NCBI RefSeq assembly: GCF_024609215.1
Contig: NZ_JANIPD030000002.1
Coordinates: 1-64,000, forward strand
DNA from: Curtanaerobium respiraculi
Lineage (GTDB): Bacteria > Actinomycetota > Coriobacteriia > Coriobacteriales > Eggerthellaceae
Direction of reading: 5' to 3'
DNA: 64,000 nt
Position numbers and translations under genes: made by a program. This document shows positions 20,800 to 28,090 of the stretch, in pieces (position 1 is the stretch's first letter; each line of letters opens with the position of its first letter). The notes beneath the pieces were generated by a model. The model was not told where the DNA came from. It searched no databases and saw only the letters and a list, made by a program, of their open reading frames with translations.

Positions 20800-21007
20800 C
20801 TCGGAGAAAATCCGATAAATCCTGAGCGCTTTTCGGACTTAGGAGCCGTCCATCCCCATGGATCGGCTCGGAACGGCGGGGTTGCATGCGTTGCTTCCGC
20901 ATTCCCCCAGGTCGGGGTTTCTCGGCCGGGTCTGGTTTGCCCGCATTTCCGAAAAGCATGGCTCCTAAGTCCGAAAAGCGCTCAGATAATCGCTGTTTTT
21001 CTCCGAG
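20800..21007. repeat. 208-bp MITE-like element with imperfect 48-base inverted ends
   Basis: The outer 11 bases CTCGGAGAAAA (20800-20810) return inverted at 20997-21007, and a perfect 25-base arm at 20823-20847 returns inverted at 20960-20984. The 112-base centre has no gene. This is the shape of a miniature inverted-repeat element. It ends 37 bases before the IS3-family element. Confidence 0.6.
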
Positions 21008-21054: not shown

Positions 21055-21240
21055 CTAAGCGGCTATCCCCTTGCTCCTGCGGTACTCGTTCGGGCTCATC
21101 CAGCCGAGAGGCTTCTTGATGCGCGTCTCATTACATGCCTCGATGTGCCCGTTCACGGCGGTGACGAACTCCTCGAAGGTCACGCCCTCCCAGTCGCGGT
21201 AGTAGAGCATCTCGTTCTTCAGCCGTCCGAAGAACCCCTC
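21055..21240 (-). pseudogene. IS3-family transposase, C-terminal fragment
   Basis: The minus strand reads GFFGRLKNEMLYYRDWEG then IEACNETRIKKPLGWMSPNEYR and ends at TAG (21055-21057). This is the C-terminal end of an IS150-type OrfB, including the catalytic Glu region. It joins in frame to the fragment at 24611-25799 if the RIT element is removed. Confidence 0.8.
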
Positions 21241-21289
21241 TCATGTGCCGGGCAACGTTATGTGCCGGTAGGAAGCTGGGCCGCAGGTC
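21236..21289 (+). repeat. Left terminal inverted repeat of the RIT element
   Basis: Fifty-four bases, beginning CCCTCTCATGTGCC and ending GGCCGCAGGTC, return as a perfect inverted copy at 24535-24588. The first five bases, CCCTC, also belong to the interrupted transposase gene. Confidence 0.85.
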
Positions 21290-21372
21290 GCCCCCGCCCG
21301 ATGAACGAGATTGGGCACATAACGAGGTAACGTCTCCCTATCGGGATTGGCATCCTACCGAGGGGAGACGCA

Positions 21373-22560
21373 ATGGAAAAGATACAGGAGCATCTCGGCT
21401 ATTTCCACGCCCACCTGCTGGAGAACGGCTACTCCGAATCGGCATCCAAGAACTACCGGTTCAGGGCCAGCACCTTCCTGAAGCAGAGGCCCGAGGCGCT
21501 CGATGCCGGCGAATCCGACGCTAGAGAGATCGTGGAAGACTACATCTCCGGCCTTCCTAGCAACACGGCTTCCACGATACCGGCTGCGGCGGTGAGGAGA
21601 TGGTGGGCGTTCCGGTTCGGCAAGCCGTACCGCGACCGCATCGTCCCGTCGAAGATCGAGGCGAGCGAATCAATCGCCGCGGAGCTCGCGGAATTCGAGC
21701 GCTACCTCGTGGCGCACGCCAACATCAAGCCGGTCACCATCCGCAACAGAGTTGCCGCCTTAAAGCTCTTCCTCTGCGCGACGTTCCCGGACGGCGACTT
21801 CGAGCGCAGGGCGATAACGCTGCAGGACGTCGTCGGCTACCACACCTCGACCGCGACCGGCGAGGGGCCCAGCATGCGCGCCCTGCAGGGAAGCGACCTT
21901 CGCTCCTACATACGGTTCCTGCGCTGGGAGGGCGTGGACGACATCCCGCTCGACGCGGTGTCCCTGAGCGGTCCCACGCGGCGCGACCACACGATCCCCG
22001 GACGGCTCGACGAGGGGGACTACGAGGCGCTGCTGGCGTCTTGCGACACCGGCACCGAGCGCGGCGCCCGCGACGTCGCCATGACCCTGTGCATGGGCAA
22101 CCTGGGGCTTCGCGCGTGCGACGTCGCAAGGCTCACCGTCGACGACATCGCATGGGCGGACGGCACCGTCACCGTGCACGACTCGAAGAGCAAGACCGCC
22201 AGGGTCCTGCCCCTCGACGAGCGCACGGGCTCGGCTATAGAGAGCTATGCCGTGATGCGCGGCAAGTCGGCATCCACGCGGGCGCTCTTCCTGAACACGG
22301 CGGGCTCGCCCATAGAGTCGTGCCAGGTGCAGACCGCGATGTCGCTCGCGGCGGGGCGCGCCGGGATAGAGGCGTACCACGGCACCCATGGGCTGCGCCG
22401 CATGGTCGCGACCAACATGGTGAACGCGGGCGTCGACGCCAAGACCATCGCCGACGTGCTCGGTCACGAGCGCATCGACACGACGATGGGGTACATGAAG
22501 GTGAGCCTGCCCAACTTGCGCAAGGCAGCTGCCCACTGGCCCCGGGAGGCAAGATCATGA
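21373..22560 (+). CDS. Tyrosine recombinase A of the RIT element
   Basis: A 395-residue phage-integrase-type recombinase, the largest of the trio. An N-terminal SAM-like domain (about 105-190) is followed by a catalytic domain with GLRACDVARL (Arg I), HGLRR (His-x-x-Arg) near 340, LGHERIDTTMGYM with the second His and the nucleophile Tyr near 375. An extra N-terminal 100 residues precede the core-binding domain. Its last four bases ATGA overlap the start of the second recombinase, suggesting coupled translation and fixed stoichiometry. Confidence 0.85.
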   Translation: MEKIQEHLGYFHAHLLENGYSESASKNYRFRASTFLKQRPEALDAGESDAREIVEDYISGLPSNTASTIPAAAVRRWWAFRFGKPYRDRIVPSKIEASESIAAELAEFERYLVAHANIKPVTIRNRVAALKLFLCATFPDGDFERRAITLQDVVGYHTSTATGEGPSMRALQGSDLRSYIRFLRWEGVDDIPLDAVSLSGPTRRDHTIPGRLDEGDYEALLASCDTGTERGARDVAMTLCMGNLGLRACDVARLTVDDIAWADGTVTVHDSKSKTARVLPLDERTGSAIESYAVMRGKSASTRALFLNTAGSPIESCQVQTAMSLAAGRAGIEAYHGTHGLRRMVATNMVNAGVDAKTIADVLGHERIDTTMGYMKVSLPNLRKAAAHWPREARS

Positions 22561-23489
22561 ACGGGATCGAGACGATGGTGAACGGGTTCATCGAGTACAA
22601 GCAGGCCCTGGGGTTCGACTTCGCGGGCGAGGCCCAACGGCTGCGTGCCTTCACCGCTTACCTCGGAGGGGATCCCGCGACCGAGGAGGCGGCTCTGTCC
22701 TGGGCATGCAGCGGACCGGGGCATCCCAGATCCTACCATGCCCAGAGATACGAGACCGTGAGGCGGTTCTCCGAGTTCGCGCATGCCCTCGACCCCGTCT
22801 TCCCGGCGATGCGTCCCGGCCTCCTCGGCAGCACGTCCGACCGGGTTGTGCCCTACATCTACTCCGAGGAAGACGCGGCCATCCTCATGCGGGCTGCCCT
22901 CACGCTGAAGTCCCCCGACGGGCTGCGCGGCATGGGGCTGTCATTCCTGATCGGCCTCATGTGGGCGTGCGGTCTGCGCGTGGGCGAGGCGCTGGGCCTC
23001 GCCGATTCCGACTTCGACGGCGCGGATGGCACGCTGGCGATCAGGGATTCCAAGTTCGGGGCATCGAGGCTGATCCCGGTGGCCGACGATGTCGCCGGAC
23101 ATATCGCCGCCTACATGGAATCGCGCGATGGCGCGGGACCCACCCACCATGCGCCCAGGATGATCGTCTCGACGGGTGGCAAGCCGCTGACGAGGGATTC
23201 GGCCGAGAACATGTTCTCCGAGATCAGGTGGTCGCTCCTGGGCAGGGGCGAGTACTTCGGCGGGCGCAAGCCGCGCCTGCACGACCTTCGCCACGCGTTC
23301 AGCGTGAGGGCCATATTGCGGTGGCATGCCGAAGGCGAGGATGTCAACGCCATGATGCCGTTCCTGTCGGCGTATCTCGGACACCGCAAGCTGTCCGACA
23401 CCTACTGGTACCTCACCGGCGTTCCGGATCTGATGTCGGTCGCCGCCGACTCGTTCCGCGCGATGGGGCTCGGGGGCGATGCGACATGA
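22557..23489 (+). CDS. Tyrosine recombinase B of the RIT element
   Basis: A 310-residue recombinase. Catalytic residues are seen in CGLRVGEALGL (Arg I), RLHDLRHAFSV (His-x-x-Arg) near 242 and YLGHRKLSDTYWYL with the second His and Tyr near 285. Start ATG overlaps the stop of recombinase A and its own end overlaps the start of recombinase C, both as ATGA. All active-site residues are present. Confidence 0.85.
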   Translation: MNGIETMVNGFIEYKQALGFDFAGEAQRLRAFTAYLGGDPATEEAALSWACSGPGHPRSYHAQRYETVRRFSEFAHALDPVFPAMRPGLLGSTSDRVVPYIYSEEDAAILMRAALTLKSPDGLRGMGLSFLIGLMWACGLRVGEALGLADSDFDGADGTLAIRDSKFGASRLIPVADDVAGHIAAYMESRDGAGPTHHAPRMIVSTGGKPLTRDSAENMFSEIRWSLLGRGEYFGGRKPRLHDLRHAFSVRAILRWHAEGEDVNAMMPFLSAYLGHRKLSDTYWYLTGVPDLMSVAADSFRAMGLGGDAT

Positions 23490-24493
23490 AGGACGAATTC
23501 CCGCAGCTGGTCGAGGGGTTCTTCCTCCAGTGGATGGGTGCGGGCAGGCGCCTGTCCGCCCAGACCATAGCGTCGTACCGCGACGCTTTCTCCCTGCTGC
23601 TGCGCTGGTTCCGCGACGAGCGCGGAATCCCGGCGTCCGATGTGGGCGTGGGCGACTTCACCGCCGAGAACATTGACGCCTTCCTCCTGTTCCTGGCCGA
23701 GAAGCGAGGCAACTCGGCGGCCACCGTGAACTGCAGGCTCGCCGCCCTGAAGGCGTTCTGCTCGTACGCCGCCTACCGGGCGCCCGAGCGCCTTGCGGAG
23801 TTGAAGCGCGTGTCTGATATACCGCGCCGGACGGAGAAGAGGCGAGAGGTGGACTACCTCACGCGGGAGGAGGTGGGCTGGCTCCTGGCCGCATGCGACC
23901 TCACGACCGGGCGGGGCCGGGAGGACCATCTCATGATATCGATGCTGTTCAGCATCGGCATGCGGATCAGCGAGCTCGTGTGCCTGCGCATGGCCGACTT
24001 CGAGCTTCGCGGCGGCAGGAACGTCGTGCACATCCTGGGCAAGGGTCGCAAGGAGCGCTCGCTACCCATGTGGCCCGAGGTAGCGCAGGAGCTGGCGGAC
24101 TTCGCGGACGATCGCCACCTGGAAGACGGAGACTCCGTCTTCGCCGGGCGCAACGTTAGACATCTGTCGCGCTCGGGGGCGAGGAGCAGGATAGACGCCA
24201 TCGTCGACCGCGCGGCCAGCTTCCACCCCCAACTTGCCGGCAAGCGCATCTCGGCGCACGTCTTCAGGCATTCATGCGCGATGGCGATGCTCGAGTCCGG
24301 GGTCGACCTCTCGACAATCGCCATCTGGCTTGGTCACGAGAACGTGCAGACAACGCATAAATATATGGTCGCGGACATGGCCCGCAAGGAAGCCGCGCTC
24401 CTGAAGGTCCATCCCGGAAGCAGCGGCAGCGGGGAACGGCCCAAACGTTATTCCCCGAAGGGCGATGTCCTGGACTTCCTGATGTCGCTGTAG
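23486..24493 (+). CDS. Tyrosine recombinase C of the RIT element
   Basis: A 335-residue XerC/D-like recombinase. The core-binding domain (1-110) is followed by SIGMRISELVCLR (Arg I) near 155, AHVFRHSCAMAML (His-x-x-Arg) near 255 and WLGHENVQTTHKYM with the second His and nucleophile Tyr near 290. It ends 41 bases before the right inverted repeat. In RIT elements all three enzymes are conserved in this fixed order; their division of labour is not known. Confidence 0.85.
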   Translation: MKDEFPQLVEGFFLQWMGAGRRLSAQTIASYRDAFSLLLRWFRDERGIPASDVGVGDFTAENIDAFLLFLAEKRGNSAATVNCRLAALKAFCSYAAYRAPERLAELKRVSDIPRRTEKRREVDYLTREEVGWLLAACDLTTGRGREDHLMISMLFSIGMRISELVCLRMADFELRGGRNVVHILGKGRKERSLPMWPEVAQELADFADDRHLEDGDSVFAGRNVRHLSRSGARSRIDAIVDRAASFHPQLAGKRISAHVFRHSCAMAMLESGVDLSTIAIWLGHENVQTTHKYMVADMARKEAALLKVHPGSSGSGERPKRYSPKGDVLDFLMSL

Positions 24494-24534
24494 AAGGCTT
24501 CTTATGTGCTGGGCTGCGGGAATTATAAACGTGT

Positions 24535-24588
24535 GACCTGCGGCCCAGCTTCCTACCGGCACATAACGTTGCCCGGCACATGAGAGGG
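24535..24588 (-). repeat. Right terminal inverted repeat of the RIT element
   Basis: Perfect inverted copy of 21236-21289. Outside it, at 24590-24609, a further perfect dyad TTATGTGC-TTAG-GCACATAA fills the space up to the transposase junction and has no counterpart on the left end. Confidence 0.85.
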
Positions 24589-24610
24589 CTTATGTGCTTA
24601 GGCACATAAT

Positions 24611-25799
24611 CCCTCGCACGCCGAGTTGTCCGGGGAGCAGCCCTTCTTCGGCATGGAGCGCTCCACCCCGTGTTCATCGCATGAGGATATCCACCCCGGC
24701 CAGCGGCAATGGCAGCTGTGGTTCGAGTGCCCGGCCGGGTGCTCGCCTTCCCCGAGCGTGCCGATGGCGTCCAGCAGCATCGAGTTCGCGGGTTCGGCGT
24801 TGGGCGACGTCGGCATCCTGTGCGCGACGACCTTGCCGTCGAAGCAATCGATGACCGGCGAGAGGTGGCATTTGAACGGCGGCAGGGCGAACTGCGTGAT
24901 GTCGGTAAGCCGCAGCACGTCGGGCGCGGCGGCGTGGAAGTCGCGGTTGACCTTGTCCCTCGGATGCTCGCTTACCCCGCCCTTGTGGGAGCTGTAAGCC
25001 CGCTTATGCTTGCTGTAGATCACGGCGAGCCCCTCCTCGCGCATGATGCGGCGCACGACCTTCTTCGAGACGATGACGGGCGCGCCCCGTCGTGCGGGCT
25101 CCTGAGCTCCGCCCATATGCGCTCGGAGCCCCACGCGGCGCCTTCGCGCCGGAATATCTCCGCGACGCGCACGCGCAGCCCGGCGTATTTGTCCGGGCGG
25201 TCCATCGCCTTGACCCGCTCGTAGTACGTGGAGCGCGCAAGCCCGAGCTCCCCGAGCAGCGCGCCCAGCCAGGATTTATCCCCCAGCGCCCTGGCTATCG
25301 TCGTCTTCTCCCTGTTGGTTAGGTTCGAGGTGTCGGCGCCTGGGTCTTTTTTTAGCACCTCGATCGTCTGCTCGAGGATGGTGTTCTTCAGCTCCAGCTC
25401 GCAGGCGCGGCTGCGCAGCTCGTCCTCGCCTTCGCCGTCCCCGCGACCGGGCCGCGGGTCGGCCGTGCCCTCGATGTCCCCCCTCGTTTATGAGCGACAG
25501 CTCTCCTTCCCCGAGGAGCCTCCTGCGCCAGTTGAAGATCGTGCGCTTCCGCACGCCCGACTCCTCGGCGAGCGCGGCGGCGTCCTCGCCGGCGGCGAGC
25601 CTGCCCGCGAGCATGCGCTTCTCCTCGTAGGGCAAGTATCGGGAGGTTTCTTCCCGAAGGGCCTTCCTTCGGCCGCCTGGTCCCTCCAGCTGGCAACCGA
25701 ACTCTTGGAGGAGCCGGTCACGCGGGCCGCTTCCGCGGCGTTGCCGCCGCACTCGCCGAGGACGTAGAGCGCCCATTCCCCGTCTGCTTCGCTGTACAC
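24611..25799 (-). pseudogene. IS3-family transposase OrfA and N-terminal part of OrfB, multiply frameshifted
   Basis: Read on the minus strand, OrfA starts at GTG 25799 with two helix-turn-helix stretches (AAEAARVTGSSKSSVASW and EESGVRKRTIFNWRRRLL), the second in a shifted frame after about 25650. Further shifts occur near 25490 and 25083; one of these may be the family's programmed OrfA/OrfB slippage. OrfB shows SKKVVRRIMREEGL, the first Asp in LRLTDITQFALP and RWPGWISSCDEHG. The expected HSDxG with the second catalytic Asp reads HSNHSCH, so the enzyme would be dead even without the insertion. Confidence 0.75.
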
Positions 25800-26367: not shown

Positions 26368-26430
26368 CGAAGGGGGCGAAGGGGGCGAAGGGGGCGAAGG
26401 GGGCGAAGGGGGCGAAGGGGGCGAAGGGGG
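26368..26430 (+). repeat. Seven tandem copies of CGAAGGGGG
   Basis: A perfect 9-base unit occurs seven times (63 bases), giving seven runs of five G on the plus strand. Flanking sequences AAGGGCGCCCC (26358-26368) and GGGGGCGCCTTT (26426-26437) are mutually inverted, so the whole block can close into a stem. The region precedes the ribosomal-protein promoter by about 40 bases. Confidence 0.85.
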
Positions 26431-26466
26431 CGCCTTTCGAGGGTTTGTGGCTGTTTCATGGGCCGC

Positions 26467-26621: not shown

Positions 26622-27452
<831 letters not shown>

Positions 27453-27470
27453 AGCTAGCTAGGAGATACT

Positions 27471-27731
27471 GTGAGCAGAAGTATGAAAAAAGGCCCCTTT
27501 GTGGAGCCGCGTCTCTTGAGCCGCATCGATGCGATGAACGCTGCAGGCACGAAGGACGTCATCAAGACATGGTCTCGTTCGAGCACCATCTTCCCGGAAA
27601 TGGTGGGCCACACCATCGCCGTGCACGATGGCCGCAAGCACGTGCCCGTATACGTAACCGAATCCATGGTCGGACACAAGCTGGGCGAGTTCGCGCCCAC
27701 GCGCACGTTCCGCGGCCATGCGGCCAAATAG
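27471..27731 (+). CDS. rpsS: 30S ribosomal protein S19
   Basis: Eighty-six residues, beginning [15 protein letters not shown] and containing the TITVWSR-type motif as [23 protein letters not shown]. It sits in the 30S head next to S13. GTG 27471 after TAGGAG is preferred over ATG 27483 because family members start with the SRS-KKGPF sequence. Confidence 0.97.
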
Positions 27732-27748
27732 GCAGGGGAAGGTAGAAC

Positions 27749-28090
27749 ATGGAAGCAAAAGCAATTGCTCGCTACGTGCGCGTCTCGCCCCGCAAGGCAC
27801 GCATCGTCGTAGACCAGATCCGCGGCAAGTCCGTCGTGCAAGCGCGCGAGATTCTCGCATTCACCAACCGTGCGATCGCGGAGACCGTCGAGAAGACGCT
27901 CAACTCCGCCGTTGCGAACGCCGAGAGCAAAGACGGTGCCAACGCGAACCAGCTGTTCGTGAAGGCCTGCTTCGTTGACGAGGGCCCCACGATGAAGCGC
28001 ATCCGTCCCCGCGCCAAAGGCTCGGCATCGCGCATCCGCAAGCGCATGAGCCACATCACCATCATCGTTTCCACCCGAGAGGAGGCATAG
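27749..28090 (+). CDS. rplV: 50S ribosomal protein L22
   Basis: A 113-residue protein with [16 protein letters not shown] at the start and the exit-tunnel hairpin region [16 protein letters not shown] at the end, the site of macrolide-resistance changes in other species. No insertions are visible in the loop. It follows rpsS by 17 bases. Confidence 0.97.

Follow-up and report, generated by a model that had tools for sequence, protein, structure and literature searches.

Recombinase-in-trio (RIT) elements, described from Cupriavidus metallidurans CH34 and elsewhere, consist of three adjacent genes for tyrosine recombinases, overlapping by ATGA or another 4-8 bp, span about 3.5 kb and, according to the portions of the sources available to us (as for all papers cited here), end in an inverted repeat with an "overlapping palindromic sequence" (PMC2864759, PMC3414803). 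The archetype has been given as three adjacent overlapping tyrosine recombinase genes coding for 315-410 amino acids (aa) (PMC10214605), with two core-binding domains in RitA and an additional C-terminal helix in RitC (PMC8138268). One CH34 copy inactivates the tnpA gene of an IS66 insertion sequence (IS), two RITs lie in radC (PMC2864759), and others lie inside a Tn6049-like transposase gene (PMC3414803). The available text notes that the end sequences vary somewhat and gives neither convincing recombinase sites nor experimental data on mobility (PMC2864759, PMC3414803), and a tabulation elsewhere gives RITs 34-bp terminal repeats and marks their target specificity, empty site and movement as untested (PMC10214605). 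Here we analyze a RIT in a 64,000-nucleotide stretch of Curtanaerobium respiraculi DNA (contig NZ_JANIPD030000002.1, positions 1 to 64,000; hereafter the window), which shares the gene arrangement and end features of the published elements but, unlike them, lies in an IS3-family gene and in a Coriobacteriia genome. We consider it likely that this RIT inserted at a catalytic glutamate codon without a true target duplication, by way of a circle bearing two mirror-image sites.

The element was confirmed as a RIT of 3375 bp (21241-24615) with three intact genes, all read in the same direction and coupled by ATGA overlaps of their open reading frames. All three products match the Phage_integrase model (E values of 1.2e-32, 7.3e-13 and 8.3e-29), and each aligns best, in gene order, with its own counterpart in relatives; since no RIT-specific model was found among the NCBIfam or Pfam matches of the three proteins, the class names RitA, RitB and RitC rest on gene order. 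The R, K, H, R, H and Y residues listed for each protein in Table 1 are, we presume, the catalytic set; at the position of H242 of RitB, the alignment has Y or M in several RitB relatives. With products of 395, 310 and 335 aa, ATGA overlaps, terminal inverted repeats and a palindrome near one end, the element agrees with the archetype in its genes and its ends, and the first-pass annotation, which had read it as an intact RIT with three complete tyrosine recombinases, was borne out on this point. The genome holds this one full RIT and one ritC fragment (G000:C19:12999-13120), which shares 80% identity with the 3' part of ritC (67% at the aa level over 52 residues) and is probably a relic of a second RIT.

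The first-pass annotation had placed the three genes between perfect 54-base inverted repeats, and the match is perfect over 54 of 54 positions (21236-21289 and 24535-24588; an alternative call for the same arms gives 57 nt at 98%). However, five of these bases belong to the CCCTC region, leaving 49 bp (21241-21289) as the arm proper. Read in register, the left junction is GAAGAA-[CCCCTC]-TCATGTGCC... and the right junction is ...GGCACATGA-[GAGGGC]-TTATGTGCTTAGGCACATAA-[TCCCTC]-GCACGCC. We refer to the 6-mer outside the left arm (left inverted repeat, IRL) as T_far, to the 6-mer closing the other end as T_near, and to an inverted third copy, which lies between the right arm (right inverted repeat, IRR) and a near-palindromic core, as T'. 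The right coordinate of the first-pass annotation did span the further 26 bp, but the core and T_near within them were left undescribed. The half-site motif of the core, TTATGTG / CACATAA, is also present in the arms, and TTATGTGC occurs six times in the window, always between the outer ends of the RIT and its genes (expected count 0.77; 0 of 100 shuffles gave six or more).

For comparison, 67 loci with RIT-like trios, the window included, were scored; they came from Coriobacteriia, other actinobacteria, Clostridia-type and spirochaete genomes, proteobacterial and other plasmids, one phage-labelled record and one viral contig, the distant locus L045, which was the one locus obtained from a RitC search of viral contigs. 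The score took in the core palindrome and how closely it resembles the arm, together with the far arm, and made no use of the 6-mers. Thirty-four loci passed, from which we removed seven by hand, namely L006 (the contig cuts off the far end and the register is shifted), L011 (a core at either side), L037 (a cut contig that resembles L042), and L039, L081, L082 and L125 (best row without an ATG...CAT core). The T'-core-T end with both arms is therefore present in 27 complete elements, the window's and 26 relatives, from four phyla and the viral contig. Across these elements, T' agrees with T_near at a mean of 5.07 of 6 positions (2.39 when shuffled) and with T_far at 5.26 of 6 (2.52 when shuffled), being identical to T_near in 12/27 and to T_far in 16/27, and none of 10000 shuffles of the 6-mers among elements reached either observed value. 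The same holds, again with 0 of 10000 shuffles, when the 13 IS66 insertions and the 14 remaining elements are treated as separate groups. T_far and T_near are the same in 12 of the 27 and differ in 15, and all three 6-mers are identical in 10. At the level of sequence, these comparisons show that the element is bounded by IRL at one end and by IRR-T'-core-T_near at the opposite end, with moved copies carrying T', the core and T_near.

The side on which the core lies follows a simple rule. At the GR^KN site of IS66, the commonest target (13/27), the core is on the C-terminal side of the transposase in 13/13 complete elements and in 3/3 partial ones (L008, L110 and L122, with targets read by eye and far ends not found), making 16/16 in total, with L011 left out of the count. 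In contrast to this constancy, the gene trio has the core on its ritC side in nine cases and on its ritA side in seven. Since the core side is constant relative to the target and the trio is split 9:7, the comparison shows that the core evidently follows the target and that the body may point either way; a palindrome fixed to the right end was rejected, as the core side follows the target rather than the genes. Pfam confirms IS66 in the six joined readings submitted as IS66 (L010, L063, L078, L112 and L114 at GR^KN, and L070 at another site), and the remaining IS66 assignments were made from the motif. The window, L005 and L006 have codon and core side in common at the IS3 site: the flanks of L005, translated apart, read ...SCHDNAVA and ESFFGTLKNE... 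(DNAVA^ESFFGTLKNE), and the L006 flank before the junction reads ...GCGPDNARC. Two loci depart from the usual form, L011 having a core on both sides with the same IS66 half outside each and L159 lacking a core and being bordered at either end by the same half-target. Recombination between two inverted copies of a RIT would be expected to yield these two types of product, although L011 may alternatively be a misassembly.

Beyond GR^KN, the complete elements occupy the IS3 catalytic-E codon (the window and L005), an IS30-like gene, again at E (L026 and L042; the IS30 reading is by eye, and Pfam returned nothing in L026), the IS66-type motif CLAHLRRNF (L070, for which Pfam supports IS66), an IstB-like GK[T/D] motif (L040, by eye) and an AbiEii-like gene (L012, by eye). 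Among loci that are not part of the 27, readings by eye place elements at the HxxRH motif of a tyrosine recombinase (L159 and L161), at an FFTP-type methylase motif (L155) and in ArdC-like genes (L083-L085). The targets thus often appear to be active-site codons of mobile-element proteins; this applies to many but not all, with L045, L067-L069, L071, L120 and L123 unassigned. In the spirochaete locus L012, near 4761 and 8108, the gene appears to be of the AbiEii nucleotidyltransferase type, with the RIT at its YGG-type motif (by eye, with the flanks not joined).

In the window, the interrupted minus-strand gene matches the NCBIfam model transpos_IS3, its fragments scoring below the curated cut-off. 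When the flanks are joined with a single copy of the 6-mer, the frame SACEGFFGRLKNE continues to the IS stop codon, and the C-terminal part of this joined reading matches rve_2. The insertion point on the gene strand is GAG GGG, that is, the Glu codon of an EGFFG motif plus a Gly; we take this E to be the third acid of the IS3 DDE triad. Both model matches bear out the proposed insertion inside an IS3-family transposase gene. The accompanying claim that removal of the element restores the transposase frame holds locally, up to the IS stop, but a second frameshift in orfB, separate from the RIT insertion, remains at about 25.02-25.13 kb, so that this IS copy is defective irrespective of the RIT. 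A second copy of the IS was not found in the window's own genome, which returned only the copy itself (40 of 77 first-look candidates scored). Among the 395 genomes of the order (with two candidates scored in each), 97, the window's own included, match the IS at 65-82% identity, and many of the matches run through the insertion site (e.g., G284, 22-552 of 552); no near-identical empty IS was found among them. The search for an empty IS that had been suggested shows the site to be normally uninterrupted in the order, but the exact pre-insertion sequence was not recovered.

Relatives with identical RIT copies at different sites (in genome G671, Sphingobium herbicidovorans and Robbsia) provide a view of what moves with the element. 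The S. herbicidovorans copies L114 and L115 lie in different IS66 genes on two plasmids and agree over 3459 bp without mismatch; they share T' CCGAAA and T_near CCGTAA, whereas T_far is CCGAAA in L114 and GCGGAA in L115. An empty homologue of the L115 target matches its flanks plus T_far at 46/46 positions, and L115 is the clean case, showing the far 6-mer to be the target's own and the near 6-mer to have come with the element. On Robbsia plasmid p3, L152 and L155 are identical over 3429 bp in two different target genes. The L155 target reads TGQF-FT-PYHV, with CGTGAA at all three 6-mer places, and L152, in an IS66, has CGTGAA as T' and T_near, as at the L155 site, and CAGGAA as T_far. For the Aromatoleum pair L159 and L161, which have another arm motif and were read by hand, there is one mismatch in 3435 bp, and T' of L161, TCGCCA, is the 6-mer at the L159 site. 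A pattern of six target bases on one side and six donor bases on the other thus fits L115, is consistent in L152/L155 and L161, and is ambiguous in L114. From these cases we infer a carry-over of the 6-mer rather than a target duplication. The first-pass annotation had held that element copies with different ends would speak against it; the outermost bases do vary between copies, but only in the trivial sense that those bases come from the targets.

The two RIT bodies of G671 are identical over 3397 bp and lie in two IS66 copies in opposite orientation, with the core on the same target side. The IS66 copies show six aligned differences in about 1860 bp, two of them at the alignment edge (hence 4-6), and all four IS66 matches in the genome are interrupted halves. 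Duplication of the composite would predict 7-11 body differences, and none was seen (P(0) of about 7e-4 to 2e-5). Composite duplication followed by a flip is thereby made unlikely by the mismatch counts, gene conversion being possible. Another genome of the same genus (L131, 87%) has an empty homologue, but its 6-mer is likewise AAGAAA and is therefore uninformative.

Tyrosine recombinases act by cutting and rejoining DNA at short sites whose spacer measures 6-8 bp. If T serves as this spacer, recombination between the left and right junctions would yield an empty target and a circle joined as IRR-T'-core-T-IRL. RitA, RitB and RitC would excise the element, or copy it, into a circle whose near-perfectly palindromic junction holds two mirror attachment sites, CACATAA-[6 bp]-TTATGTG, the 6-mer being the crossover region. 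As either mirror site could be used, integration would leave the body in either orientation while keeping the core on a constant target side. The donor 6-mer would travel along, as in strand-biased circularizing integrative elements (SEs) and Tn554, and the unused site would persist within the element as T', thereby recording an earlier target. As for which 6-mer the circle carries, L114 and L115 would fit either a common donor or a circle that retains T_near. Target choice may be directed by conserved DNA encoding active-site motifs, mostly those of mobile-element proteins. The circle, its two sites and the order of strand exchange are our inference from the arrangement of the copies. More tentatively, and with slightly less than even confidence, we propose that these double-site palindromic junctions keep a history, T_far marking the present target, T_near an earlier one and T' an older or alternative one, with the trio reading from either side and core polarity fixed, and that RITs parasitise mobile elements through their active-site DNA.

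Other explanations have to be weighed against the two-site circle. An ordinary insertion with a 5-bp target-site duplication, in which the core would merely be part of the right end, was one half of the first-pass suggestion of a "5-base duplication or crossover". In its favour, CCCTC is directly repeated at the window junctions and all three 6-mers are identical in 10/27 elements, yet the near TCCCTC and the far CCCCTC of the window differ at the first base, T_far and T_near differ in 15/27, and T_near moves along with identical copies (L114/L115 and L152/L155). A fixed right end would also forbid a core that lies on the ritA or the ritC side and is nevertheless constant relative to the IS66 target, and all three Rit proteins are tyrosine recombinases. 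We regard this explanation as very improbable and keep the crossover half of the suggestion. A second possibility is that the element has one attachment site and inserts in a single orientation, the body flipping later through recombination between T and T' or between IRL and IRR. No new rule would be needed, since the body is already flanked by T and T' in inverted orientation; the products would be as observed, and L011 and L159 would represent the two expected product types. The absence of differences between the G671 bodies (0/3397) against the 4-6 in IS66 makes composite duplication plus flip unlikely, though a flip after separate insertion would still accord with the data, and we consider this explanation as a whole unlikely. 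Lastly, the palindromic junction might act as a folded single strand, like integron attC, one strand being exchanged and replication completing the event. The reconstructed window junction folds into a single hairpin (-88.2 kcal/mol, z -22.6, 0/200 shuffles), and the far/near rule appears strand-biased, as in SEs. Nevertheless, any palindrome folds, single-stranded DNA is nowhere indicated here, and SE circles are described, in the text available, as mainly nicked double-stranded circles (PMC10214605), which leaves this route distinctly unlikely in our view.

Several points weigh against the two-site circle itself. Its support is comparative throughout, and neither a circle, nor excision, nor movement (that of the window copy included) was observed; in-place inversion of the body would yield the same products. 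The window RIT is the only full copy found in its genome, with no second IS among the candidates scored there and no near-identical empty IS among the genomes of the order, so that the far/near rule is applied to it by analogy. For L114, the nearest empty homologue found (93% over the query) has the T_near version of the 6-mer, CCGTAA, rather than that of T_far; L114 is therefore ambiguous, and the rule may not be strict, or the difference may be one of codon wobble. T' of L006 is unlike its T_near. Forty of the 67 loci stand outside the complete set (33 failed the score and seven were dropped), either because the contigs are short or the ends decayed or because the arm motif or the recombinase trio is of another kind, and elements from the same genome or strain (L063/L064 and L114/L115) are not fully independent counts.

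Table 1. Features of the RIT element and the IS3-family gene it interrupts, with positions in the window.
Feature	Position	Strand	Remarks
C-terminal part of interrupted IS3-family orfB (FFGRLKNEMLYYRDWEG...GIAA, stop), far flank	21055-21234	-	Joined reading, rve_2 E 8.9e-9
T_far CCCCTC	21235-21240	+	Probably the target's 6-mer, by the rule from relatives
Left inverted-repeat arm (IRL), two direct ATGTGCCGG motifs	21241-21289	+	
ritA	21373-22560	+	395 aa tyrosine recombinase; R247 K272 H339 R342 H365 Y374 present
ritB	22557-23489	+	310 aa tyrosine recombinase; R141 K166 H242 R245 H276 Y285 present
ritC	23486-24493	+	335 aa tyrosine recombinase; R160 K186 H258 R261 H284 Y293 present
Right inverted-repeat arm (IRR), perfect complement of IRL	24535-24583	-	
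T' GAGGGC, inverted third 6-mer copy (GCCCTC on other strand)	24584-24589	-	
Core near-palindrome TTATGTG-CTTAGG-CACATAA	24590-24609	.	Two inverted recombinase-type half sites, 6 bp apart
T_near TCCCTC	24610-24615	+	Probably element-borne, from an earlier target, by the rule from relatives
N-terminal part of IS3-family element (orfA, most of orfB), near flank	24616-25776	-	Outer limit approximate

Around the IS, a 48-nt inverted repeat (83%; 20800-20847 and 20960-21007, with 112 nt between) forms a 208-bp block resembling a miniature inverted-repeat transposable element and adjoining the IS end. On the other side lie a perfect 9-bp tandem repeat (26368-26432, 7.2 copies, with a low-complexity GGE-type reading) and, at 26622-28090, rplB-, rpsS- and rplV-like genes (by eye). 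As the genome's sole match to L23 (rplW, PF00276) is on another contig (G000:C4:165959-166213), the S10 ribosomal operon appears to be broken immediately upstream of rplB, close to the tandem repeat and the IS/RIT region, which could reflect a rearrangement or a misassembly. Elsewhere in the survey, a record from human faeces labelled bacteriophage (MT836168.1) matches part of an Agrobacterium pTi plasmid (L121) at 99.99% identity over 7367 bp, and the identity begins at T' of a RIT end.

Several known systems carry donor bases to a new site. In Tn916-type elements, bases of the donor flank (the coupling sequence) travel in the circle as the crossover region; unlike RITs, these elements use Int plus Xis and have low target specificity and no T' copy. 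Tn554 encodes TnpA and TnpB plus TnpC, and we know of no palindromic double site for it. The Tn554 family does resemble RITs in having several recombinase genes and a 6-bp footprint carried from the donor to the new site (PMC10214605). SEs likewise use tyrosine recombinases and a 6-bp spacer: the six donor bases enter the circle and then one side of the new site, with the six target bases on the other, and an SE insertion in insJ of IS3 in Escherichia coli is mentioned (PMC10214605). Unlike RITs, SEs have four core genes (IntA, Tfp, IntB and Srap), and the available description includes neither an inverted third 6-mer nor a core palindrome (PMC10214605). The window element was rejected as an SE, having only three recombinase genes between its arms and no room for a fourth.

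RITs themselves, their ATGA overlaps and an IS66 insertion are already known, while the available portions of the published descriptions do not include the T'-core-T end, the fixed core side or the carried 6-mer (PMC2864759, PMC3414803). In the open literature searched, neither the carried 6-mer nor the T' copy nor a fixed polarity was found described for RITs, although an earlier account in Ricker 2013, Van Houdt 2009 or Nielsen 2017 is possible; relative to that literature, the T' end structure, the polarity rule and the carry-over are new. As far as their available text goes, the ends, movement and target choice of RITs were left open (PMC3414803, PMC10214605). The present comparison gives the ends exactly together with a crossover region, yields rules for polarity and for targets, and would tie RITs to the way in which SEs and Tn554 move, with six donor bases marking the next site.

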